Shown: piece by piece, positions 1-34,825 of the stretch
Layout of the letters: each line of letters starts with the position of its first letter
Position numbering within the stretch: the first letter of the stretch is position 1
From: a virus
Reading direction: 5' to 3' (one strand)
IMG/VR virus record: IMGVR_UViG_3300049043_000114
Span: 1 to 34,829 of that record
Length of the DNA: 34,829 nt
The notes under the pieces: generated by a model
Seen by the model: only the letters and a program-made list of their open reading frames with translations
What the model was told of the DNA's origin: nothing
Database searches by the model: none
Made by a program: the position numbers and the translations under genes

Positions 1-1120
1 AACCTATCGGGTGAGAGTGGGCCCTGGCACGGCGCCGGCATGGTGCAGTCTCATGGACTGCCGCAGCGCAGCCCCTGTCAGCGCCCCTGGCGCCGATTCA
101 AGAAGTCCATGCCTCCACGCCCTTCCAGGTCCTCATCCAGGCTGTTGGCGACGACTGTGCCACAACAGTTCTCAGCGAAATTGCCCTCAGCGAGTGTGCG
201 AGCTGTCTCGGCGGCCTTGGCGTTGCTGCTCCTCCTCTGCTGCAGCACCTTTGTCAGCTGGACTACATCATTCCGCTCGCTGGAAGGAGCGCACTGGAAT
301 CCTCACCTGGTCGCCTTGCGGATTATTGCGGTCCTGGCGCTCGGCTGTTCCTGCGCCGCAATGTCAGCGGTGCTGGCTGCGCACTGGCCCCATCCGCGTT
401 TCTTCCACGTCACTGGGCGAGACCGCCGCCGACCACCTGGAAGCCTGTCCTCTCCGCCGGTGCAGGCTCCCTTGCGCAGGGCCGGGCCTCTGCCTGCTCC
501 TGGCCGCCGGCCTCAGGGCACTCCCTGCGCTCCTGTCTCTTGCTCCCCCTCCTCCGCTGGTGGCGGCGGGGGGTGGTTCCCGAGCCGATGGCCTCGGCCC
601 CCCGGGCCCGGCCCGCGCACGCGAGGTAGGGCAGGCCGGGGCAGGGGGCCCTGCGCCCGGAGGGATCGACGGCCAGGACGCGGCGAGCAGGGCGCTCCAG
701 TCGGCCAGCACTGTGCCGCTTCGTCGTGCTGAGGGTGGTGAGCCGGCGGTTCACCACATCGGCGATGCAGCTGGGCACGTCGGACGCAGCGGTCTGTGTA
801 CCTTCTTGCTGGTGCTGGCTGCCCCCACGTGATGTCCTCTTCGCTGGAGGCCGCGGTGGGCAGGCTGCGCCTGGCGGACGCGCGGCCCCACGCCCAGCCC
901 TGGCGAGGAGGGCCTGTCCGTGTTCGTCCTGCTAACCTGGGCCCGTGCTTCACCCCGGCTCTAGTGGGATCGGCTCCTGGAAAAAGTCCAGCGTCACCGA
1001 CCGGCAGGGGCCTCGACGATGGTCCGGTCCGGGCATGCGCTTGGAATTGTGTTGCCTGGTCATTCAATGAATGGGGCGCGCGCCCGTCTGTCTGGGCATG
1101 GAGCAGCGGCTGCTGCGTGA
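1..1120. other. Insert A: GC-rich segment of unknown origin
   Basis: This segment lies left of the first adapter junction and is unrelated in content to the phage insert. It is very GC-rich, with proline/arginine-rich open frames on both strands that resemble shadows of skewed composition. I recognise no protein family, RNA gene or mobile element. Indels probably break any real gene here, because plausible stretches switch frame every 100-200 bases. It may be actinobacterial or other high-GC DNA, which is only an inference from composition. Confidence 0.5.
78..300 (-). CDS. Unidentified partial reading frame in insert A
   Basis: Read on the minus strand, this stretch gives about 70 residues of well-mixed, hydrophilic composition. 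It runs from around ERNDVVQLTKVLQ through AETARTLAEGNFAENCC to GGMDFLNRRQGR and a TGA at 80-78. It looks more protein-like than any other frame in insert A. The upstream part shifts frame near 300-310, so the N-terminus is not defined. I recognise no family and propose no function. It could still be a chance open frame in GC-rich DNA. Confidence 0.25.
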
Positions 1121-1168
1121 GCAATACTGAATGGAACGAAGTACATTGACAAACAGTTACGTATTGCT
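1121..1168. other. Nanopore adapter junction between inserts A and B
   Basis: Positions 1121-1147 read GCAATACTGAATGGAACGAA followed by GTACATT. This matches, with a few indels, the reverse complement of the Oxford Nanopore ligation Y-adapter (GCAATACGTAACTGAACGAA then GTACATT). After six bases, 1154-1168 read CAGTTACGTATTGCT, the exact 3' end of the adapter top strand. This head-to-head arrangement is what arises when the end adapter of one molecule and the start adapter of the next stay in one read. It is technical sequence, not biology. The adapter sequence is recalled from general knowledge. Confidence 0.95.
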
Positions 1169-1445
1169 TTGATGTCTCACTTGGAGTTGTCTTGAATTAT
1201 CGGGGATCATTATGATGCAACGCAGAGTGCGCTGTTCCGAACACTAGTAATGATGCGGCATTCACGGTAGTGGAGATATCCTTTTACGTAATAGCACCTC
1301 CGGAGGGATGATTTTCGGCATTCAGAGTGCCATTTGGCACGTACCACTGCACATTCCCGCACAGTAGGGGATGTTGGCAAGGTCGGAGAAAAAAAACGCC
1401 GGCATTGGTATCTCGGCGAAATCGATTAGGATGTCACGCTGGAAT

Positions 1446-2476
1446 CTAAGCAACGGCAGACGAAGGACACGCCAGGTTGTCTCCTCTCGCGGAGATGGAG
1501 TTTTTTGCGAATACGGGCGCGATATACTTCAACGCTTTCGAAGGAGACACACAGAAAGTCGGCGATCTCTTTCGTATCGAGATTGAGTTTGAGAAGAGAG
1601 CAAATTTTGAGTTCGGTGGAGAAAGACTCCAAACTCGGCACTAAGCTTAGCAATAAACTCTTGATGAAAGTCCGAAAGCTGTTTCGTTACCCCTTCCATT
1701 TGCTCGCCCCCTCGCACATGCTCATCAATAACCCGTAACAGGTCACGTGACACAGTTTGAATTTCATGATGTGTCGAACGTGTGGCGCTAAGCAAACGTT
1801 GCTTGAGAGCCGATATGACTTCATTCTTTCGAGCTAACGCAAAGAGCTGACGCGTTAAGTTCTTTGGCTCTTGGAATCGAGTCGCAGCCGATACTGCTCG
1901 CTCCGCCGCCGCAGCAATCTCTCTGTCGCGCTGAGCTTGGGCAATGTCCACACGTAGTCGAGGGTCTGCACCTGCTTGGAAGCTATCCTGCGACCATGCA
2001 CCGAACGCTCCTGCTGGGCGCGACGTGCGTGGTTCTGAGCTTTTTTTAGGTCGTGTGCACGTTCATAGTGTCGGGGAGAGAAGGTCGTCGTGACCCTGCG
2101 ACTGCAGTAAATGCAACTGATGTTCCTGGCTAAGGCGCAGCGCGGCGCTTAGGGCGCGCACATATTCGGCTTCATGCTTTTTGCCGTGAAGGCTTGCGTG
2201 TGCGTTAAACTGACGAAGGGAGTTTCAGCTTTAATGGATGCGCTGGTTGTCGCGTACGATCACTGTAGCTTATTCCTTGACGAAGTAAGTCGGTTGCAGT
2301 TCTTTTGTTTCTGAAGTCCCGACTCCATCTCGGCGCTCAGACCGGAAACATCGGGCAACGTTGAGATTGTCCTGCACCTCCAAAAAAATCGTCCGTGATT
2401 GCAAACAGTGATCGATCGCTACGCTGTGACGATGTTCTCTGACGATGCAGCTCGGCTAACAGTGAATGAACCTCGA
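1446..2476 (-). CDS. TPR / LuxR-type HTH regulator, 5'-truncated and frame-broken
   Basis: Stitched over several indels, the minus strand encodes the C-terminal part of a cytoplasmic regulator. Order: TPR-like helices (ELHRQ, SVAIDHCLQSRTIFLEVQD, about 2470-2320; SLHGKKHEAEYVRALSAAL, 2195-2130; RHYERAHDLKKAQNHARRA, about 2075-2015), a charged coiled coil (AQAQRDREIAAAAERA), then a conserved tail with FHQEFIAKLSAEF. It ends in a LuxR/GerE helix-turn-helix (TELKICSLLKLNLDTKEIAD, SVEVYRARIRKKLHL) with a stop at 1448-1446. This TPR-coil-LuxR layout is typical of Bacteroidota and relatives, where such proteins are transcription regulators; the signal is unknown. The 5' end is cut off by the adapter at 2477. 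The rest of the insert, 1169-1445, shows no gene I can support. Confidence 0.75.
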
Positions 2477-2514
2477 GCAATACGTAACTGAACGAAAAAC
2501 AGTTACGTATTGCT
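2477..2514. other. Nanopore adapter junction between inserts B and C
   Basis: Positions 2477-2495 read GCAATACGTAACTGAACGA, an exact match to the bottom strand of the ligation adapter. A short A-run follows, then 2500-2514 read CAGTTACGTATTGCT, the exact 3' end of the top strand. The two halves form a near-perfect inverted repeat that would otherwise be easy to misread as a terminator or recombination site. Base composition and gene content change completely across it, from moderate-GC Bacteroidota-like DNA to GC-rich phage DNA. Confidence 0.97.
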
Positions 2515-2829
2515 CCAGCCTTTCCCCCCACGGCGAGAGCCGGGGAGGAAGTCGTGAGACGGCACTGTAGCGCCCTGTGAGGGCCGTGTGGCGGAGTCGA
2601 CGAGCTTCTGGTCAACTCGAGCGCCGGCGTGCCGTCTGGATCGATCCTGTGCGGAGTTTCGCCTGGCGTCGAGGGTCTCGCACATTCCCGCAGGTCAGAG
2701 CCTCATAGCCGTTTTACCGCTAGAGTTGGGGCGTGACTTGCTCCTGGTGCTCAAGCTCTTCGCCCCTCCTCCGTCGTGGTGACGCTCGCTACTGCTCGAG
2801 CCGCTGCCGGTTGGCTGCGCATCGCTCCC
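2515..2829. other. Left end of the phage insert, no gene assigned
   Basis: This stretch is the first phage sequence after the adapter. Short open frames exist on both strands, but none has a recognisable motif or a good ribosome-binding site. If the virion genome is linear with cohesive ends, the packaging site would be expected in this interval or beyond the right end, because terminase genes follow and an HNH gene closes the other end. I could not identify a specific cos motif. Confidence 0.35.
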
Positions 2830-3293
2830 ATGCCGCGCAGCCGAACTGCGCAGCCGTCCTAGGTGGGTCAGGTACGACGCCAACAAGCGCCCATTGACTG
2901 TCGACGACGCACCGGCGTCATCGACCAACCCTTCGACGTGGACCGACTTCGGTGTTGCAGCGGCGGCGGCCGTCGGTGTCGGGTTGGGGTTTGTTCTTAA
3001 CGGCGACGGCATCGCGTGCGTCGATCTCGATCATTGCTCTCGATGGTCGTGGCCGGCTCACACCGTGGGCCGCTGAGCTGCTGGCCGGCTGTCCCGACAC
3101 CTACGTCGAGACGTCTCCGTCGGGCCAAGGTCTCCATGTGTGGGGATTCGGAACGGTCGTGAAGGGTCGCAAGTCGGGCAACGTCGAGGTGTACGGCACG
3201 AGCCGCTATCTCACTGTCACCGCCAGGCGGTGGCGTCACTGCTCGACGACGTTCGCCGATCTTGATGAGTGGATCGGGTCGCTGCCGCTCTAG
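2830..3293 (+). CDS. PrimPol-type N-terminal domain protein
   Basis: Stitched over two indels (near 2860 and 3035), this gives about 150 residues: AELRSRPRWVRYDANKRPL, then STNPSTWTDF, GLGFVLNGDGIACVDLDHC, DTYVETSPSGQGLHVWG and GNVEVYGTSRYLTVTARRW, ending DEWIGSLPL. The order W-x-KRP, STxPxTW, the DxDxC acidic pair, SPSGxGLH and the R-(Y/F)-(L/F)-T-(V/L)-T motif matches the N-terminal domain of phage bifunctional primase-polymerases. The family makes primers or short DNA. Here only this domain is present, without a helicase, and it sits next to terminase rather than in the replication arm. The ATG at 2830 is the nearest plausible start but is out of frame, so the start is uncertain. Confidence 0.7.
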
Positions 3294-3301
3294 GAGCACT
3301 C

Positions 3302-3609
3302 ATGGCCGCTCAGGGTCCGAACGAGAAGGCGGTGCGGGCGACGTTGCGGCAGCTCGAAGTGAGCGTCGTTGACGAGCGCGTTGGGTCGGCTGGCGGTGAC
3401 GTTGGCGAAGGCTCTTGATGCTGATGCGGGGATGGCGACAGGCGGCCATCTCTCGTGAACTACGGGCAACGCTGTCTGAACTGGAGGGCCGCTATGGCGG
3501 CACCGATGACGACGAGCTCACACGTCTCCTCGCCGATCTTGTCCTCCCCGGTGGTCGACGCCAAGAACGGACCGCCCCACGCTCGGTGGGAAGTCGCGCA
3601 GATTGCTGA
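3302..3609 (+). CDS. Terminase small subunit-like protein
   Basis: ATG at 3302 follows an AGGAG with 5-base spacing. After repairing two indels (about 3395 and 3430) the protein reads as a helical N-terminal region, then LAVTLAKALDAD, SRELRATLSELEGRYG and DDDELTRLLADL. Small helical proteins ending in a TxxELxRLLAxL-like segment directly upstream of the large terminase are common in actinobacteriophages and act as terminase small subunits that recognise packaging DNA. Identification rests on that pattern and on position, since the family diverges fast. The last part overlaps the large-subunit start, so the true stop may be earlier than 3609. Confidence 0.6.
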
Positions 3610-4973
3610 GGTCCTTGGCACACCGTTGATGCCGTGGCAGCGCCACGTCGTCGACATCGCCTACGAGATCAACCCTGACACGGGTCGTCTGGTGTACCGG
3701 GAGGTGCGACCTGAACTGGTCTCCTCGCCAGTCGGGCAAGACGACGTTGATGCTGGCGGTGATGACTCATCGCTGTCTGGTGATGGGTGACCGTCAGCGA
3801 GTGTTCTACACCGCGGAGACCGGCAAGGATCGCGCGCCTCAAGTGGGAGGACGAGCACGTCCCGGTGTTGGAGCGGTCCCCGTTCGGGTCGCTCATCAGT
3901 GTTCGGCGCACGAACGGGTCGGAGGCGATCCGTTGGCAGAACGGGTCGTTGTGGTCGCTGCTGGCGACGACGGAGTCTGCCGGTCACGGCGCGCAGGCCG
4001 ACACGGGTGTGCTCGACGAGGCGTTCGCCTATGTCGACGATCGCCTGGAGCAGGCGATGAAACCGGCGATGGTGGCACGTCCGCAGCCGCAGTTGTGGAT
4101 CGTGTCGACGGCCGGCACCGAGGATTCGTTGTATCTGAACGAGAAGATCGACGACGGTCGGATGCGTGCTGCGGCCGAGCAGACGTCGTCGGTCGCCTAT
4201 TTCGAGTGGTCTGCCCCCGAGGACGCTGATCCGGGCGCCGAGGACACCTGGTTCGGTTGTATGCCGGCGCTGGGTCTGACGGTGCCGGTGGATGCGATCC
4301 GGTCGGACTTCGAGTCGATGCGTGAGCCGGAGTTCCCGGAGGGCGTATCTGAATCAACGCCAGGACAGAGCGGCGGCGGCTCCGTGGCAGGTCATCGCCG
4401 AGGAGCCGTGGCGTGAGTGCGCCGATCCTCGATCGCAGATCGCCGATCGTCCGACGATTGCTCTCGATGTGACGCCGTCTCGGGCGATGACGTCGCTGGC
4501 CGCTGCTGGTCGTCGTGACGATGGCCGGCCGCACGTTCGAGGTGATCGGCAACCGTCCTGGCACCTCATGGGTTCTTGATTGGTTTGCCGCCGAGGATCG
4601 TGTCGCCCGCTACCGGTCGGTGGTGATCGACCCGGTGTCGGGTGCGAACAGTCTGGTGCCCGAGTTGCGGGCGATGGGCCTCAAGATCATCGAGGTCGGT
4701 GCCCGTCAGGTTGTTGCCGGCTGCGGCAACTTCTACGACATGGCCACCACCGGCCGACTTCGTCATCTCGACCAGGTGCCGCTGAACGCTGCGGTGGCGG
4801 GGGCGAAGAAACGCAATCTCGGCGACGCGTGGGCGTGGCATCGACGTGACACCAGCGTCGACGTGTCCCCTCTGGTCGCCGCCACCCTTGCCCTCCAGGC
4901 GCACGTCGCGCCGGAGCTGCGGCCTGCTGGCGCACCGCAGATCGTCGACCCTTGGAGCATGACCGATGCGTGA
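3494..4973 (+). CDS. terL: Terminase large subunit
   Basis: This is the packaging motor ATPase and nuclease. ATG at 3494 has GGAGGG with 5-base spacing. The stitched protein (about 490 residues) shows EVLGTPLMPWQRHVVDIAYE, a Walker A-like RQSGKTT at about 3729-3749, and a Walker B TGVLDEAF near 4007-4030. WIVSTAGTEDS follows, the coupling-motif region after Walker B. The C-terminal nuclease half includes TIALDVTPS (first acidic residue) and SVVIDPVSGANSLVPEL. Indels lie near 3715, 3830, 4340 and 4505. The stop overlaps the next ATG. The family translocates DNA into proheads and cuts concatemers; whether packaging is cos or headful is inferred only from the HNH gene at the far end. Confidence 0.93.
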
Positions 4974-5106
4974 TGTCGTCACCACCGTGGTCGAAGTCGC
5001 CGGTCTGGCCGCCATCGTGGTCGGCGTCGGCCTGTTGAGTGTCCCTGCTGCTGTGATCGTCGCTGGTGTCCTGGCGGTCGCCATCTCCTATCTGGTGGCC
5101 CGATGA
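4966..5106 (+). CDS. Small single-pass membrane protein
   Basis: A 46-residue protein starting MRDVVTTVVEVAGLAAIVVG. Residues about 10-42 are almost entirely hydrophobic, enough for one long or two short membrane segments, ending SYLVAR. Its ATG lies inside the terL stop and its TGA overlaps the portal ATG, so it is translationally coupled between two head genes. Tiny membrane ORFs between terminase and portal occur in some actinophages, without a known role. It is short but its frame is clean. Confidence 0.7.
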   Translation: MRDVVTTVVEVAGLAAIVVGVGLLSVPAAVIVAGVLAVAISYLVAR

Positions 5107-6270
5107 GTCTGTTCGCCAAGCGTGCGTTGACCCCTGATCCTGTTCGGACGTCGGTGTGGTTGCCGTCGACGAACTGGTCGGGTGAATCGATCAACGAGTC
5201 GACCGCCCTCGAGGTCACTGCTCTGATGGCGTGTGTGTCGTTGATCGCCGATTCGGTGGCGTCGCTGCCGATCCGGGCTATCCGGCATGTCGGGGATCGC
5301 ACCGAGAGGCTGAGGTTCCCCGAATGGCTCGACAACAGCGGTGAGCACACGCTGTACGAGCTGATCCACATGGTGGTGACGTCGCTGGCGTTGCACGGCA
5401 ACGCCTACCTCTACATCGACCGTGATTCGGCCAAGACGCTGCCGAAGTCGTTGACTCCTCTGCACCCGACCAACGTGCAGGTCAACGTCGTCAACCGCAC
5501 CAGGTACTACACGGTGAACGGTTTGGTGGTGCCGGCCGACAACATGATCCATCTGCGTTGGTGGACTCCTCCGCAGTCGCCGGTCGGTCTGTCACCGATC
5601 GAGATGCAACGCAACACGATCGGCCTTGCTCTCGCCCAGGCGCGCTTCCTCGACCAGTGGTATTCGGAGGGTGCGACGCCGTCGTCGGTCCTCGAGGTCG
5701 AGGGCGACATGACCGCCGAGCAGGCGAAGGTGTTGCAGTCGACGTGGGAGACGTCGCATCGGCGCCGTCGTCGTCCGGCGGTGCTGACCAACGGCATGAA
5801 GTGGAAGCCGATCACGTCATCGGCCCAGGACATGGAGTTGGCCGAGTCCCGTGAGCAGACGATCAACGACATCGCCCGCATCTTCCGGGTTCCGAACTAC
5901 ATGATCGGCGCCCGAGGCGACTCGCAGACCTACCAGAACAACGAGATCAGCCGGTATGCACTTCGTGACCTACACGCTGCTGCCATGGCTGGTGCGCATC
6001 GAACGGGCCCTGTCGACGTTGATGCCCGCTCCGCACGAGTTGAAGTTCGATACGGCGGCGTTCCTGCGAGCCGACACGATCAACCGCTATCGGGCTCATC
6101 AGATCGGCATCATGTCGGGGTTCATCACTCCGAACGAGGCTCGTGCCGTCGAGGGTCTGGAGCCGTATGTCGGCGGGGACGAGTTCGTGATGGCGCTGCC
6201 TGGTTCGCCGATGGCCGGTCCCGGTGTTGATCCGGCGCCAGTCGGCGTCGACGCCAACCCTCCGGTCTGA
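5103..6270 (+). CDS. Portal protein (HK97 family)
   Basis: About 389 residues starting MSLFAKRAL, the ATG overlapping the preceding TGA. The HK97 portal signature is clear: ALEVTALMACVSLIADSVAS, LHGNAYLYIDRD, then HLRWWTPPQSPVGLSPIEMQ, a QARFLDQWYSEGATPSSVLE segment, and the conserved AESREQTINDIARIFRVPNY with the helical stem and lid after it. One indel near 5955 shifts into the frame carrying HFVTYTLLPWLVRIERAL and ending VDANPPV. The portal dodecamer sits at one capsid vertex and is the DNA channel for terminase. Length is usual for the family. Confidence 0.93.
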
Positions 6271-6589
6271 TGCCGGTCCCACCCGCAGGCCGCTCAAGAC
6301 GAAGCGGAACGTGGCCTGACTTGGCGTCGCGAGTTCGGACGTGGCGGAACGGCCGTTGGAATCGCTCGTGCTCGAGACATCTCGAACGGTGTCGATCTCC
6401 CCGAGTCGACGCTGCGGCGGATGCGGTCCTACTTCGCACGCCACGAAGTCGACAAGCAGGGCACCGGCTGGTCGCCCGACGAGGACGGCTACCCGTCGAA
6501 CGGTCGCATCGCCTGGTCCCTGTGGGGAGGTGATCCGGCCCGAACGTGGGTGGAACGCATCCTCGATGAGACGCAGAGGACACACGTGA
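6270..6589 (+). CDS. Head-region protein with RxHEVDK...GYPSxGRIAWxLWGG motif
   Basis: The ATG at 6270 overlaps the portal TGA. One early indel (about 6285) leads into about 100 residues: DEAERGLTWRREFGRGGTA, ARDISNG, LRRMRSYFARHEVDKQG, then GYPSNGRIAWSLWGGDPART. This block is a recurrent phage motif found next to portal or head-protease genes, alone or fused to them. Its biochemical role is not known to me. The conserved tryptophans and the basic helix suggest nucleic-acid or protein binding, which is inference. The stop may be the TGA at 6587 after another indel, overlapping the next GTG. Confidence 0.6.
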
Positions 6590-6918
6590 CCGACGAATCC
6601 CGAGGAATCGACGACGGAATCTACCCGTTCTCCCGATTCAGCGTGATCTCTACGACAAGTTCGAGTCGGTCGTCGAGACCTTCGGGATGTTCGACCAGGG
6701 AACCGGAGCGCAGGGCGCCCACTACATGGCCGACAACCCGTTCGCAGCCGAAGGGCTCGCCTGTTCCAACTGTGCGTTCTACGACGGCCCGAGAGCCTGC
6801 GAGATCGTCGCCGGGGACATCGACCCGGAGGCTGTCTGCAAGTTCTGGATCATTCCTGAGACGTTGCTCACCGGCGAGGCGCAGGGGCCTGCCACTGAAC
6901 CCATGGGAGAACCCATGA
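6586..6918 (+). CDS. Cysteine-cluster head-associated protein
   Basis: A GTG at 6586 begins TDESRGIDDGIYPF. After an indel near 6642 the frame reads DLYDKFESVVETFGMFDQG, GAQGAHYMADNPF, CSNCAFYDGPRACEIVAGDI and EAVCKFWIIPETLL. Four cysteines in the order CxxC, C, C suggest bound zinc or an iron-sulfur cluster. Similar small cysteine-cluster proteins occur just upstream of prohead proteases in other phages. In this sequence no stop separates it from the protease frame, so it could be fused. I prefer two coupled genes, because neighbouring junctions use ATGA overlaps and a TGA at 6916 overlaps the protease ATG in a shifted frame. Confidence 0.55.
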   Translation: MTDESRGIDDGIYPFSRFSVISTTSSSRSSRPSGCSTREPERRAPTTWPTTRSQPKGSPVPTVRSTTAREPARSSPGTSTRRLSASSGSFLRRCSPARRRGLPLNPWENP

Positions 6919-7568
6919 CCGACACCCCTGTCCGCTACGCCGTGCTCGGCGCTGAACAGCGTCGCATCAACGGCCGTGACGTCGAGTTCCGCACCGTCGA
7001 GGTCGGTCCGCTCGAGTTGCGCACCGACGGTGAAGGCGACGGCATGACGTTCCGTGGCTATGCCGCCGTGTTCAACTCGCCGTCGGAGCCGCTGCCATTC
7101 GTCGAGTCGATCGCTCCAGGGGCGTTCCGTCGCTCGCTCAACAGCGGCCGCGAGGTGCGAGCGTTCGTGAACCACGACACCGGCCAGGTGCTGGCCACGA
7201 CCCGCAACGACACGCTGCGGCTCATCGAGGACAGCCGTGGTCTGCTCGTGGAGGCGGATCTGCCCGACACCACCGCCGGTCGTGACCTCGCCGAACTGGT
7301 CCGCACCGGAACGGTTCACTCCATGTCGTTCGGGTTCTCCGTGCCCCGTGGCGGAGATGCCTGGTCCGAGGATCGCACCAGCCGTGAGCTGCGTGAAGTG
7401 ATCCTGCACGAAGTGTCGGTGGTGACCGGCTTCCCCGCCTACCCCGCCACCGAAGGTGCCACCGTGCGCACCGTCGAGAACGACGTCGACGAGACCCCAG
7501 CCGAGGCGCCCATCGGGCCGCCCGTGGCGTTGCGTCGACGCATCCTCGAGCTCAACGCCAAGCGCTGA
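6915..7568 (+). CDS. Prohead maturation protease (HK97 type, U35)
   Basis: A 217-residue protein starting MTDTPVRYAVLGAEQRRING, with a GGAGA about 5 bases upstream of the ATG. The HK97-type serine protease fold is indicated by TFRGYAAVFNSPSEP, GAFRRSL, the histidine in FVNHDTG (about H87) and the serine in HSMSFGFSVP (about S138). These correspond to the family's catalytic His and Ser, followed by LHEVSVVTGFPAYP. It cleaves scaffold and the capsid N-terminal delta domain during head maturation and sits directly upstream of the capsid gene, as usual. No indel is apparent. Confidence 0.92.
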   Translation: MTDTPVRYAVLGAEQRRINGRDVEFRTVEVGPLELRTDGEGDGMTFRGYAAVFNSPSEPLPFVESIAPGAFRRSLNSGREVRAFVNHDTGQVLATTRNDTLRLIEDSRGLLVEADLPDTTAGRDLAELVRTGTVHSMSFGFSVPRGGDAWSEDRTSRELREVILHEVSVVTGFPAYPATEGATVRTVENDVDETPAEAPIGPPVALRRRILELNAKR

Positions 7569-7672
7569 GCCGAACCCCGCAGCCCGGAACCGAGGCCCGG
7601 AGCACCTTCGTGTGTCACCACCCGCCGGTCACCACCTGCATCCCATAACCCCCAACCTCTTAGGAGACTGCC

Positions 7673-8884
7673 ATGAGCGATGAGCTCATCGAGCGGCTCA
7701 CCGAGCAGCGCGCCCGTGCGTGGGAGCAGGCCAAGGGCCTCCTCGACGCGGCCGCTTCGGAGAACCGCGACCTGACCGGCGAGGAGTCCGAGCAGTTCGA
7801 GCGGATCAACGCCGACATCGACGCGATGGATCACCGTCGCAAGTCCATCCTGGACGCCGAGGCCCGTGAGCGGGCCATCGACGAGTCCCGTGCCGCCCTC
7901 GGGTTGCCGGCCGACTTCACCAGCCGCACCGCCCCGGTGCAGGCCGAGAAGTCCGACGCCGACATCATCCGTGAGATCGCACTGGGTGAGCGTCGCAGCT
8001 ACTCGTTCGAGCAGCGCGGGACGTCCTCAAGTCGTCGACCGGTGCCCCGGTCCCGACGTCGTTCTACGACCGTCTGGTCGAGCACCTCGTGGTGCAGGGC
8101 CCGATGCTCGACGGCAACGTCGTCACCATCCTGACCACCAACTCCGGTGAGAACCTCCAGATCCCCCGCACCTCGACCTACTCCGCCCCGGCGGTCACGG
8201 CCGAAGGCACGGCGATCTCCGAGTCCGATCCGACGTTCGGTGCGTTCGTCACCCTCGGTGCGTTCAAGTACGCCGCCACGTTCCAGCTGAGCCGTGAGGT
8301 CGTCGAGGACAGCGGGATCAACCTGCTCGACTTCGTCGCCCGTCAGGCGTCGATCGGCATGGGCACCGCGGTCAACGCCGGCCTCACCGTCGGCACCGGC
8401 ACCGTGCAGCCCACCGGCATCGTCACCGCTGCGTCGTCGGCGGTCACCGGCGGCACCGGCGTGTCCGGCGCCCCGTCGGCCGACAACCTCATCGACCTCG
8501 TCTACACCTGCCCGGCTCCGTACCGGCGCCGGGGTGCGTCGTGGCAGATGCGAGGCTCGACGCTGGCTGCGGTCCGGAAGTTGAAGGACACCACCAACCA
8601 GTACCTGTGGGCCCCTGGCCTTCAGCCCGGACAGCCGGACACCCTGCTCGGCTATCCGGTGTACGAGAACCCGGACATCGTCGCCACGGCGACCGGTGCC
8701 CGCTCGGTCATCTTCGGTGACATGAGCTCGTACTACGTCCGTCAGGTGCGAGGCATCGACTTCGCTCGTGACGACTCGGTCGGGTTCGTCAACGACCTCA
8801 TCACGTTCCGGATCACCTGGCGTGGGGACGGCAACCTGCCCGAGCGCCAACGGCGTCTGGTACTTCAAGGGTGGCGCGTCCTGA
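7673..8884 (+). CDS. Major capsid protein (HK97 fold)
   Basis: About 403 residues, ATG preceded by TAGGAGA. Residues 1-110 form a charged coiled-coil-like delta domain (ELIERLTEQRARAWEQAKGL, EFERINADIDAMDHRRK), expected to be removed by the protease. The mature part contains PVPTSFYDRLVEHLV, NLQIPRTSTYSAPAVTAEGT, FQLSREVVEDSGINLLDFVA, RGASWQMRGSTLAAVRKLKD and LLGYPVYENP, all typical HK97-fold capsid landmarks. Indels lie near 8019 and 8846. The true C-terminus reads ANGVWYFKGGAS with TGA at 8882. A strong hairpin follows. Confidence 0.93.
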
Positions 8885-8912
8885 TCGGACGCATCACCTG
8901 ACACGGGCTTCG

Positions 8913-8959
8913 TCTGGTTGGTGGTCGCCCCTTGCCCGTGGGGCGGCCGGCCGACCAGA
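8913..8959 (+). terminator. Hairpin after the capsid gene
   Basis: A 19-base left arm starting TCTGGTTGGTGG pairs imperfectly with a right arm ending CCGACCAGA around the loop TTGCCCGT. The inner CGCCCC/GGGGCG and outer TCTGGT/ACCAGA parts are perfect. There is no T-run, as is common for terminators in high-GC bacteria. Position just after the capsid stop suggests a partial terminator or mRNA 3'-stabilising element that sets capsid abundance apart from downstream genes. Confidence 0.6.
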
Positions 8960-9015
8960 CAGTCACACGGGTCACCGGCGAGGAGCACACATGGGCAAGA
9001 AAAGAGGCGACGGTC

Positions 9016-9111
9016 ATGTTCGTCGTGATCCGAGGAGCCGAGGTGGAACTACCGGACTATCTGGCGACGTGGATGCTCGAGGCCAGTCTGGCGACGCTCG
9101 TGCCGGAATCG
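9016..9111 (+). CDS. Possible small ORF after the capsid gene
   Basis: An ATG with AGAGG seven bases upstream starts MFVVIRGAEVELPDYLATWM followed by LEASLATLVPE. Very short proteins of this general look (an initial VxGAEVELPDY-like strand and helix) lie after capsid genes in many actinophages. The 3' end is unresolved: the same frame stays open far into the next gene as a shadow, so the stop has probably been lost to an indel around 9100. The end given is only where the protein-like composition stops. Confidence 0.4.
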
Positions 9112-10336
9112 TCTGGCACTCCAACTTCGCAGCGGCCGGCACCGGCTACGGCGTCCAAACTGCCCAAGTCGTCCGGCAGATCAAAGCCACCGGCCGACCG
9201 GTCACGCTCTCGAACAACTACGGCACCCAAGGGTTCATCACCTCGTGGGAAGGCATCGAAGTCCTCCCCACCGGCTTCCACCCTACAGCGCCGACATCCT
9301 CGTCGCTCACTGCAAGTACGCCCAAGAAACGCAAGGTCGACCCGTCGCCCTCGTGACCCTGTTCGACTGCTGGGTGTACGCCGAAGTCGAACGTCGACGA
9401 GATCCCCGTCATCGCGTCGTGGGTCCCGATCGACCACATGCCACCACCCGACGACGTGCTCGCCTGGTGTCGCCGGCCGAATGTCCTTCCGATCGCCATG
9501 GCCAAGTTCGGGTCACAGATGCTCGACAGGGCCGACATCGAGCACATGTACGCCCCTCACGCAGTCGACACCCACACGTTCCGACCGAACGCAACCGTCG
9601 ACGGCGCCACCGGTCGGGACCTGCTCCACATCCCCGACGACGCGTTCGTCGTCGGGGTCGTCGCCGCCAACAAAGGCATGGCACCACTCCGCGAAGCGTG
9701 GGGTGAGAACCTGCTGGCGCTCAGCCAGTTCATGGCCGACCACGACGACGTGTGGGTGTATCTCCACACCGAGAAACGAGGGGCGCAGGGCGGCATCGAC
9801 CTGGTGCGGACTCACCGAGGCGTGCGGCATCCCCGCCGAACGCATCGTGTGGACCGATCAGTGGGCCTACTACGCCGGCCTCGACCCCGAGATCCTCGCC
9901 GTGCTCATGGGGGCGATGGATGTCCACCTGCTCGCCTCCAGAGGCGAAGGGTTCGGTGCCGGTCCTCGAGGCCGCCGCCTGCGGCGTCCCGTCGATCGTC
10001 GCCAACTTCACCGCCCAACCCGAACTCGTCGACGGATACGGATGGTGCGCCTCGGTCCAACCCGACTGGGATGCGGCACAGAAATCGTGGTTCGCCACAC
10101 CGTTGATCCATTCAATCGTCGAGCAGCTCGAAGTCGCCTACGACGACGCCCGCAACTCGCAACGCCGACAAGCGGCCCGTCAGTTCGCTCTCGGCTACGA
10201 CACGATCCGAGTGTTCGACCGCCACCGGCGACCGATCCTCGAAGAGATGGATCGGCGGATGCCCGTGATCGCATGGGAACGCCTGGGAAACGAGCCGAGG
10301 CGCGTTCCGCACCCTCGGCGCACTGCTCCCCGATGA
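9100..10336 (+). CDS. GT4-type glycosyltransferase
   Basis: Stitched over at least four indels (about 9285, 9390, 9810, 9955), the protein runs about 400 residues: GIVWHSNFAAAGTGYGVQTA near the N-terminus (nucleotide-binding glycine loop), FDCWVYA, IASWVPIDHMPPP, GRDLLHIPDDAFVVGVVAAN at the start of the second Rossmann domain, ERIVWTDQWAYYAGL, and the GT4 donor site SRGEGFGVPVLEAAACGVPS followed by IVANFTAQPELV. This family moves a sugar from a nucleotide-sugar to an acceptor. Lying between capsid and connector genes, it probably decorates virion proteins, which is inference. The start is uncertain (GTG at 9100, or ATG at 8991 in the same frame). The stop is also uncertain and overlaps the methyltransferase. 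Confidence 0.85.
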
Positions 10337-19853: not shown

Positions 19854-20151
19854 CACCGAGACGGTGAACCTCACGATGCAGGACTCGTCGGGTGCGGCGA
19901 TCAACATCACCGGCCGGACTTACGCCGCGCAGGTTCGGGTCACGCCCGATGCTTCGACGGTTCTGGCCACGTTCGCCTGTTCGATCGTCAACGCTGCTAC
20001 CGGGAAGGTGGCGGCGACTCTGTCGGCGACGACCACCGCTGGACTCACGCCTGGCGGTGCGGTGTGGGATCTTCAGGAAACCAACGGTGCCACCGTCACG
20101 ACGCTGCTGTCCGGTCCGGTCACGATCGTGCAGGACGTCACCCGGTCATGA
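19810..20151 (+). CDS. Phage baseplate/fibre-associated beta protein
   Basis: 113 residues, ATG with GGAGGA three bases upstream. MTTPANYPLTIRIGDTETVN is followed by LTMQDSSGAAINITGRTYAA, VLATFACSIVNAATGKVAAT and LQETNGATVTTLLSGPVTIV. This all-beta pattern is common for small proteins encoded just before collagen-like fibres (upper-baseplate or fibre-attachment domains). It probably joins fibre to tail tip. The next ATG overlaps its stop. Confidence 0.7.
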   Translation: MTTPANYPLTIRIGDTETVNLTMQDSSGAAINITGRTYAAQVRVTPDASTVLATFACSIVNAATGKVAATLSATTTAGLTPGGAVWDLQETNGATVTTLLSGPVTIVQDVTRS

Positions 20152-21347
20152 ACCAGGAGGTGACGATCCGCATCTCCGACGTCACCATCGTGCGCGTCGG
20201 GGACAACATCACTCTCACGCAGTCGCCGTCGAGCGAGATCATCACGGTCGGTTCGGCGGTGTCGGGTCCGGTCGGCCCGCAGGGCGCTACCGGTGCGCAG
20301 GGTTCGCAGGGTGTGACCGGTGCGGCGTCGACTGTTCCTGGTCCGCAGGGCACCCAAGGGGTGCAAGGTTCGCAAGGTTCGGTTGGTGCGCAGGGGTCGG
20401 TCGGTGCGCAGGGTGCTACCGGTGCGCAGGGTTCAGTCGGCGCTCAGGGGGCCGCTGGCGCGCAGGGTGCTGCTGGTCCGCAGGGTTCGGTCGGCGCGCA
20501 AGGCCCGCAGGGGTTCCAGGGTGCGAACGGCGCGCAAGGCTCGGTCGGTGCTCAGGGTGCTGCTGGTGCTCAGGGTGCGGCTGGTGCTCAGGGTGCTGCT
20601 GGTGCGCAAGGCCCGCAGGGGTTTCAGGGTGCGAACAGCAGGCGCAAGGCTCGGTCGGCGCTCAGGGCGCAGCAGGCGCGCAGGGTCCGCGAGGGTCCCA
20701 GGGTGCAGCGGGAGCCGACGGAGCTCAGGGCCGCAGGGCGCACAGGGCGCACAGGGCGCACAAGGTTCAAGTGGAGTTCTGCGTTCAATCAAGACCGTCA
20801 CTTCGTCCACATACACGCTGCTCGCCTCAGGACAAGACGAAGATCGTCTACTTCACGTTCAACGGTGCCGTCACCGTCACCGTGCCGTTCAGTCTCGGGC
20901 CGGTAGGTGGAGTGCAGGATGGCGAACAGTTCATCCTTGCACGCAACCCCGCAACGGTGGGTTCGACTGGCAAGTTGACGCTCGTAGGCCAGTCAGACGT
21001 AGACAACGACATTCTCCATCAACGGGTGCCTCGTCGGTCACGTCATCGACCACATCGGCAAAGACCGTCGTACTCACCGCAGTGGACATTCAAAGCGTCG
21101 GCGGGTCGTATGTCGCGTTCGGTGACCTCGACCGTCATGTGGACGTGAGTGCCGAAGCGTCGACTTCCGTGCCCGCCATCTTTCGCGGTGCGGCGTCCCA
21201 AACCGCCGATCTTCAGCAGTGGGTTGATTCGTCCAACACCGTCTTGGCTCGCATCACCAGCACGGGAAGATTCGTGTCGACGCAGTCAAGCGACGACGAC
21301 GATCAAGCGATCCTCGCATCACAGATCTTTCAGTTCAGGAGCAGGGA
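20148..21347 (+). CDS. Collagen-like tail fibre protein
   Basis: Starts MNQEVTIRISDVTIVRVGDN. Residues about 40-210 are Gly-X-Y triplets (SGPVGPQGATGAQGSQGVTG and onward), rich in GAQ, GPQ, GSV and GAA units. A folded C-terminal part follows: SIKTVTSSTYTLLASGQDKT, KIVYFTFNGAVTVTVPFSLG, VVLTAVDIQSVGGSYVAFGD, ADLQQWVDSSNTVLARITST. Phage collagen-like fibres trimerise and bind host surfaces. Indels near 20635, 20730 and 21015 break the frame. No stop is visible before the next ATG at 21348, so the end is approximate. GAQ-type triplets lack proline hydroxylation, so stability would rely on charge and packing. Confidence 0.85.
20259..20775 (+). repeat. Gly-X-Y codon repeats (collagen-like)
   Basis: Imperfect 9-base units built on GG(T/C)GC(G/T)CAG and GGTTCGGTC code for GAQ and GSV triplets. 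Several longer near-identical blocks occur, such as the repeated GGTGCTCAGGGTGC units at 20550-20600 and the GGGTT(C/T)CAGGGTGCGAAC units at 20513 and 20619. The array is likely to expand or contract by slippage or recombination, and read errors here are probably more frequent. Confidence 0.85.
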
Positions 21348-31312: not shown

Positions 31313-33785
31313 CGCCGATCGACCTGGTGCTTGAGCAGCTCGCTGCCTTCGGGCACCCCGCCAAGAAGGTCGGGAACTCGTGGATAGCCAGGTGTCCCAG
31401 CGCACCCTGGACAAGACACCCTAGCCTCTCTATCAATGAAGGCAAGCGACAGACAACGCCGATCCTGCACTGCTACGCCGGCTGCCCCATCGAGGCCGTC
31501 CTTGACCGCTGTCAACCTTGACGTCACGCAACTGTTCACACCCAAAGACAGGACCAGTCAGCGCCCTCGGTGACATCGTCGCTTCCTACGACTACACCGA
31601 CGTCAACGGTAAGCCGCTTCTCCGGGTCAACCGCTTCTACCCCGAAAACGTTTCGACAACAACACTGGAACGGAACCGCCTGGATCAACGGCAAAGGCGG
31701 CGCACCAACCGTCCTTTATCGCCTTCCCAAAGTCCGAGCCGAAGCCGACCGGAACGGCGTCGTCTGGCTCGCCGAAGGCGAGAAGGACGTACACGCCCTC
31801 GAGGCAGCCGGCGTCGTCGGCACCTGCAACGCCGGCGGCGCAGGCAAGTTCAACGCCACTCACGCCACTCAACTTCAAGGCGTCAGTCTCGTCGTCATCG
31901 TCGTCGACAACGACGCACCCGGCTACGACCACGCCCGCAAGGTCGCCGGCGAACTAACTCTCAACAAGATCCCCTACCAGTTCGTCATGGCCGCCGAAGG
32001 CAAAGACGCCGCCGACCATCTCCGCAATCACGGCCTCGACGAGTTCATCACGGTTGCCACCCTTGAAGCCGCCGATCCCGCTGAAACTCAACCCAACCCG
32101 ATCCCACTGGACACGGGGCATCGTCACGGCCCGCCGTTCCCGTTGCACGCCGTACCCGAATGGATCTCCAAGATGTGCACCGAAGTCGAATGGTCCTACC
32201 AGGTGCCCGCCGACCTCCCCGCCATGCTGGCCCTCGGATGCCTGTCCACCCTCACCGCCGGCAAGATCCGCATCAACGTCGAAGGCACCAACTGGACCGA
32301 ACACACCAACCTCTACCTCGTCACCGCCATGCCGCCCGGGTCGGGCAAGATCGCCGGTGTTCGAGGAAATGACCAAAGCGGTCCGTGAGATCAGAGAAGC
32401 GGTCACGCGCCCGGGCAAAGACGATGTCCCACGAGATCGAGGCGAAACGGTCGATGCTCGACAAACGCCGCACCGAGATGCAGAAGTCATCCGATCCGGG
32501 CGACAGCGACCATCCGGGCACTCGCCGAAATCATCGGCCAAATCGACGACCTCGAGCGCCCGTCGGACGGAACCATGGTTGTCGAGGACATCACCCCCGA
32601 AGCCCTCGTCGAATCACTGGCCGAGAACAGCGGGCGCCTGGCACTGCTGTCGTCCGAAGGCGGAGTGTTCGACATGATGGCCGGCCAATACATGGACCGT
32701 GGCAAAGCCACCAACCTCGCCGTTTACCTCCAAGGCTGGTCAGCCGACGAGGTGCGACGCAAACGGCGAGGATCGGCCGACTACATCATCAACGAAGCCA
32801 TCCTCACCATCTGCATCACCACGCAGCCCGGAGTCGTCGCCACCCTCGGAGCCAACGAAGAACTGGTCCGCAAAGGCGTCCCCACCAGATTCATGTATTC
32901 GGTGCCGCCATCACTCGTCGGATACAGGGACCGCAGCAAAGTCCGCACCACCGTCTCCGACCACGTCGACAACCTCTACAACCAGCTCATGGTCCAGATC
33001 GGCGACCGATGCCTCTCCGTTGAACACCCCACCACCCTCCTCCTCGACCACGAGGCGTCCGAGGTGTTCATCGCATGGGACCAGGACCTCGAGGGGCGTC
33101 AACGCCCCAAGGGGGACCTTGCCGACCGGGCCGAATGGGCCGCCAAACTCCGGGCCTCCGTGCTGCGCGTCGCCGGGCTGCTCCACGTCGCCCACAACGC
33201 CGTGGAGGGGCCACGGTCAGCCTACGGCGACATCGGCCTCGCCACCCTCAACGACGCCATCACCATCGGCACCTATTGGCTGGAACACGCCGAGGTGATC
33301 GAACGACTCTGGACCGACGACGCAGACCTCAACCGGGCCGCCCTGCTGCTCGACCTACTCGTCGACCGCGCAGGTGGACGAGTTCACCCTGCGGGACGCC
33401 TACAAGCCTCAAACGGGGCACCTTTCCCACCGCTGCCGAGGCGATCGCCCCGCTACAGATCCTCGTCGACCGCCACTGGGTGATGCCCCACCAGCCCGAA
33501 CCGGTCGCCGGCACCGGCAAAGGCAACCGGTCACAACGCTTCACCCTGCGATCTGACGCAGCGTCAGTTCTTCGCGCAACCGCGCAACCCGCGCAACTCG
33601 ACCCCGAACCCGATGAAGTTGCGCGGGTTGCGCGGGTTGCGCGTAGAAGAACGGGTTTCCACCCACCCACCCATACCCCCGAATCCACGCCCCAAATCAC
33701 CAAAACCCTCGCGCAACCCGCGCAACCCGCGCAACTTCCCGCAACCGGAACCGACGGCGACCCCGACTACCCCGTCTACGTCTAG
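31309..33785 (+). CDS. Primase-helicase: zinc domain, TOPRIM and DUF3987 ATPase
   Basis: About 820 residues after stitching. N-terminal MTPIDLVLEQLAAFGHPAKK with CPS...TPSLSINEGK and HCYAGCPIEAVL, a CHC2-like zinc domain. Next YDYTDVNGKPLLRVNRFYPE and TOPRIM motifs GVVWLAEGEKDVHALEAAGV and VVIVVDNDAPGYDHARKVAG. Then a DUF3987-type region: VPADLPAMLALGCLSTLTAG, Walker A AMPPGSGKS, VVEDITPEALVESLAENSGR, GGVFDMMAGQYMDRGKATNL and LRVAGLLHVAHNA. The C-terminus is a winged helix plus a QPAQPAQL-rich tail. It should prime and unwind at the phage origin. Indels near 31405, 31545, 31655, 32345, 32400, 32505 and 33375. Two genes joined only by errors cannot be excluded. Confidence 0.82.
33574..33735. 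repeat. Three clusters of GCGCAAC iteron-like repeats
   Basis: Each cluster holds three copies of the 7-mer GCGCAAC at 8-9 base steps: direct at 33574, 33582, 33591; inverted (GTTGCGC) at 33618, 33627, 33636; direct again at 33711, 33720, 33729. The first and second, or the second and third, can form a long stem of about 24 bases, so the two hairpins are mutually exclusive. They lie in the 3' end of the primase-helicase gene and encode QPAQ/VARVAR peptide repeats. Phage origins often sit within replication genes (lambda O), so this is a candidate origin. Confidence 0.7.
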
Positions 33786-34747: not shown

Positions 34748-34799
34748 CCTGAGGGCACCCCCCGCCGCCCCGGGTTCCTGTTGCGGCTACAGAGATACA
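34748..34799. other. Right end of the phage insert, no gene
   Basis: Fifty-two bases with a C-run and CCCCGCCGCCCCGGG, possibly one cos flank if the virion DNA ended here. No gene or obvious repeat of the left end (2515 onward) is seen. Confidence 0.4.
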
Positions 34800-34825
34800 G
34801 CAATACGGACCTGAACCAAGGACAT
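34800..34825. other. Degraded nanopore adapter at the right end
   Basis: GCAATACGGACCTGAACCAA followed by GGACAT differs at 4 of 26 positions from the ligation-adapter complement used at 1121 and 2477. A noisy copy is expected at a read end. It marks the right limit of phage insert C and implies the window ends at a molecule end. Confidence 0.85.

Follow-up and report, generated by a model that had tools for sequence, protein, structure and literature searches.

Organization of the record

The window analysed here, i.e., the whole 34,829-nucleotide stretch of IMG/VR record IMGVR_UViG_3300049043_000114, is composed of three unrelated inserts, termed A, B, and C, and of the adapter sequences found at their ends (Table 1). 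The GC content of the inserts is 69%, 51%, and 65%, respectively, and their tetranucleotide distance from C, scored against same-length windows of C, reaches z 4.6-5.9 for A and z 4.4-7.9 for B. The comparison of B with C, which a preliminary description of this DNA had proposed, reveals a clear compositional break at the point where a bacterial regulator gene appears to be fused to a phage.

Table 1. Coordinates of the inserts, adapter copies, and phage termini in the window.
Feature	Position	Strand	Description
Insert A	1-1119		High-GC DNA, unrelated to B and C
First adapter junction	1120-1168	+	Error-bearing bottom strand (1120-1147), then top strand (about 1139-1168)
Insert B	1169-2475	-	GerE/LuxR-type regulator gene fragment, frame-broken, Bacteroidota-like
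AGCAATACGTAACTGAACGAA	2476-2496	+	dA tail and 20 exact bottom-strand adapter bases, closing the insert B read at its 3′ end
AAA spacer	2497-2499		Between the bottom- and top-strand adapter parts
CAGTTACGTATTGCT	2500-2514	+	Final 15 top-strand adapter bases, exact, opening the insert C read at its 5′ end
Insert C	2515-34798	+	Linear cos-ended phage genome, apparently complete; 32,284 bp excluding its 3′ overhangs
Left cos terminus CCAGCC	2515-2520	+	Homologous start in relatives L029/L049 and L063; L043 and L044 within 1-2 bases
Right cos terminus CAGAGATAC	34790-34798	+	Comparison with relative L064
Third adapter copy, bottom strand	34799-34825	+	4 mismatches, score 19; closes the record

For insert A, neither Pfam nor NCBIfam gives a match above noise, no plasmid matches it, and its left end carries no adapter. 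Insert B encodes a GerE/LuxR DNA-binding domain (PF00196, E=1.8e-6); its nearest NCBIfam model is SusR, with a score under the SusR cut-off. The taxonomic search suggested for this flank returned six confirmed relatives among species genomes, all six from Bacteroidota (Chryseosolibacter, three Sphingobacterium, and two Flavobacteriaceae), with 34-63% identity across 41-56 residues. The left flank had been described as a LuxR/TPR regulator of Bacteroidota type: the LuxR domain and the Bacteroidota affiliation are borne out, while the TPR part is not confirmed.

In insert C, matches were obtained to portal, prohead protease, and capsid families, together with the WhiB (PF02467, E=6e-13) and Rpf-like transglycosylase (PF06737, E=8e-11) domains by which the flank to the right of the junction had already been recognised as phage. 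The closest annotated major capsid protein to that of C belongs to Pontimonas phage phiPsal1 (MG835450), at 44% identity; the two genomes are similar in size (31 kb for phiPsal1), but they are not near the same species. The first 25 kb of C has no nucleotide match among phage records. Collagen-like Gly-X-Y repeats with an 18-nt period occupy 20264-20770 within the reading frame 20064-20906, which is broken past the repeat and whose product is probably a tail-fibre or surface protein. Direct and inverted repeats (CCGCGCAACCCGCGCAACT) cluster at 33580-33738, with perfect inverted arms of 29 nt set 66 nt apart.

Adapter sequence at the junctions

The published Oxford Nanopore (ONT) ligation adapter comprises a start sequence, AATGTACTTCGTTCAGTTACGTATTGCT, and an end sequence, GCAATACGTAACTGAACGAAGT (PMC7490894). 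Local alignment identifies the segment between inserts B and C as this adapter, its bottom and top strands lying head to head with scores of 23 and 15, respectively. By comparison, when the whole window was simulated six times with an order-1 Markov model, the best top-strand scores were 11-13. The 15-mer CAGTTACGTATTGCT, present in three copies in the record, is absent from the reversed-sequence control. An exact adapter identity had been anticipated at this position, with 19 bottom-strand and 15 top-strand bases; the top-strand count is correct, and the bottom-strand match, exact as described, is longer by one adapter base and is preceded by the dA tail. The adapter-like stretch also forms an inverted repeat of 19 nt with a 9-nt spacer. 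A natural inverted repeat of this form, such as a terminator or an attachment site, was nevertheless rejected on adapter identity, and its probability is negligible, given the exact match to a commercial product, the two further copies at insert ends, and the restriction of the other copies found in IMG/VR to one dataset.

At the first junction, the two strands score 22 and 17, and the top strand is exact over its last 15 bases. The adapters at this junction and at the record end contain several errors per 27-28 bases. In both junctions of the window, the order is that of the bottom strand ending the previous read, followed by the top strand beginning the next one. Local alignment found no additional adapter scoring above chance in the interior of C. 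A fuzzy regular-expression scan overlooked the error-rich bottom strand of the first junction, which local alignment recovered, and gave 16 chance matches when run on roughly 100 kb of reversed control; for this reason, only adjacent pairs, exact matches, and strand order are relied upon here.

Recurrence of the adapter in IMG/VR

Two exact adapter patterns were scanned across 2.9 million IMG/VR contigs, leaving out the record of the window. Exact matches were confined to dataset 3300049043, to which the window presumably also belongs, and occurred in eight of its other records: 3300049043_000087, _000091, _000096, _000116, _000152, _000188, _000244, and _000256 (L004-L015). The adapters in these sibling records are untrimmed and either internal or terminal; an adapter 12-mer recurs exactly as many as 10 times per record (10 in _000188, which spans 120 kb) and never in the reversed control. 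Wherever adjacent adapter pairs were found at the sibling loci, the bottom strand preceded the top strand (10/10). Some sibling records resemble the window in layout; that of 38,252 bases, for example, has adapter copies from 1069 to 9305, then one long stretch, and a last copy at 38,232. In 3300049043_000091 (L012), positions 1455-2064 hold two further junctions in which an error-ridden bottom strand is followed by an exact or near-exact top strand. Untrimmed adapters in 3300049043 are a dataset-wide artefact.

Native termini of the phage insert

Relatives of C were collected via portal and capsid. Several of these separate contigs share fixed termini. The start of L063 (3300011113_000045), which is 81% identical to C across 7.8 kb, and that of L029 and L049 fall at the base homologous to the start of C; L029 and L049 bear different dataset numbers but begin with identical sequence, and could represent two assemblies of one sample. 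The relative 3300025896_000134 (30,200 bp) has both ends, starting with CCAGCC as C does and finishing at the homologue of position 34798.

Other relatives run across the position where the ends meet. All six of these end-spanning contigs (L022, L024, L030, L034, L064, and L066) show their own right end, 10 extra nucleotides, and then the left end. Comparison of L024 with G001 gives the extra 10 nt as CCCGAGTCCC, which is missing from both ends of G001, and equivalents of it are present in L022, L034, L030, L064, and L066. In L064, for example, the arrangement reads TAGAGATAC-CCCGATGCCC-CCATCC, where the window counterpart ends with CAGAGATAC and starts with CCAGCC. Left of the homologue of the C start, the spanning relatives carry the phage right end and no Bacteroidota-like DNA, and neither insert A nor insert B has a match in any phage relative fetched.

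Taken together, the shared termini and the spanning relatives indicate that the adapters were attached to natural virion DNA ends, and that what belongs to the left of position 2515 is the right end of the phage. Insert C is bounded exactly by native cos termini, whose coincidence with the adapters had escaped the preliminary description. The third adapter copy abuts the right terminus. The 10-nt cos overhang would be of 3′ polarity, since the 10 nt are lost at both ends and end repair removes a 3′ overhang while it fills in a 5′ one. Overhangs of this kind, 10 bases long and 3′, have been described in actinophages, and in cos phages such as Mycobacterium phage Rummer, 10 nt are likewise absent between the ends of the linear molecule (PMC11008113). 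The overhang sequences differ, however, being CCCGAGTCCC in the relatives of C and CGGGTGGTAA in Rummer, and for the lineage of C the polarity is deduced from the loss at both ends.

Sequence quality of the phage insert

Gap totals from nucleotide alignments could not tell sequencing error from divergence, and a tblastn test for frame changes against genes of relatives was used instead. Frame changes affect 9 of 16 matched genes in the comparison with G3, 8 of 20 with G1, and 11 of 20 with G6, as against 0-1 frame-broken genes in each relative-to-relative control. Only these counts were used, the per-kb values of the controls being negative, with empty matches scored as -1. The broken frames fit Nanopore consensus error. 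Insert C, with a tblastn rate near one frame change per kb, is nonetheless low in errors for a raw read. Set against the several errors in the adapters at the first junction and at the record end, this rate suggests that the record is likely a contig with one chimeric read as its backbone, in which other reads had served to polish the phage portion.

Origin of the chimera

All these observations confirm that the apparent bacterium-phage junction is leftover ONT adapter between separate molecules read in succession, with no gene transfer involved. In the proposed and very probable sequence of events, three library molecules, corresponding to A, B, and C, would have followed one another rapidly through the same pore; the software would have left the signal unsplit, such that the trailing bottom strand of one read directly precedes the leading top strand of the next; and the untrimmed chimera would then have been deposited as a single viral contig. 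Fusion would accordingly have taken place at read splitting rather than in the tube, as the bottom-then-top order and its many repeats per record are what is expected of successive unsplit strands. An adapter found mid-read is a known signature of chimeras, and in one controlled study cross-assigned chimeras arose during sequencing and not during library preparation (PMC6156371); under-splitting is also a recognised cause (PMC6596899). The chimeric reads of these reports similarly contain the ligation adapter between unrelated inserts from successive strands that were not separated. The present case differs in that the artefact persisted into a public viral contig and that native phage termini fall at one of the boundaries.

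An improbable alternative is that the molecules were physically ligated through their adapters in the library and then read as one strand, which would equally place adapter between the inserts. A Y adapter is blocked on its forked side, which would not be expected to join to a second adapter. Moreover, the up to 10 adapter copies per record and their fixed bottom-then-top order are better explained by unsplit strands, even if the set-up of the controlled study could not exclude chimera formation during adapter ligation (PMC6156371).

Far less credible still is true horizontal transfer or transduction, in which the phage would carry, or have integrated beside, Bacteroidota DNA. Adjacency alone speaks for it. 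The joint is occupied by synthetic adapter, which leaves no contiguous native DNA across it and led to the rejection of this explanation; in addition, what lies at the joint in relatives is the right end of the phage itself, and insert B is absent from all of those fetched. The warning that such a transfer would be a false discovery thus holds, on the strength of adapter identity, strand order, recurrence in one dataset, the compositional break, and the relatives.

Implications

At least nine IMG/VR viral records are affected, namely that of the window and eight from 3300049043, some with 8-10 exact adapter copies. Any host, auxiliary gene, transfer event, or genome length deduced from such adapter-bearing records would be wrong. 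Because the adapters coincide precisely with the natural ends of the phage, cutting at them yields a better genome than the deposited record. It appears likely that, in addition to dataset 3300049043 being unsafe for claims of gene linkage or transfer, insert C with its adapters excised represents an essentially complete, cos-to-cos genome of an uncultivated phage of actinophage lineage, spanned by a single molecule and with a 10-nt 3′ overhang cos of the CCCGAGTCCC type seen in its relatives.
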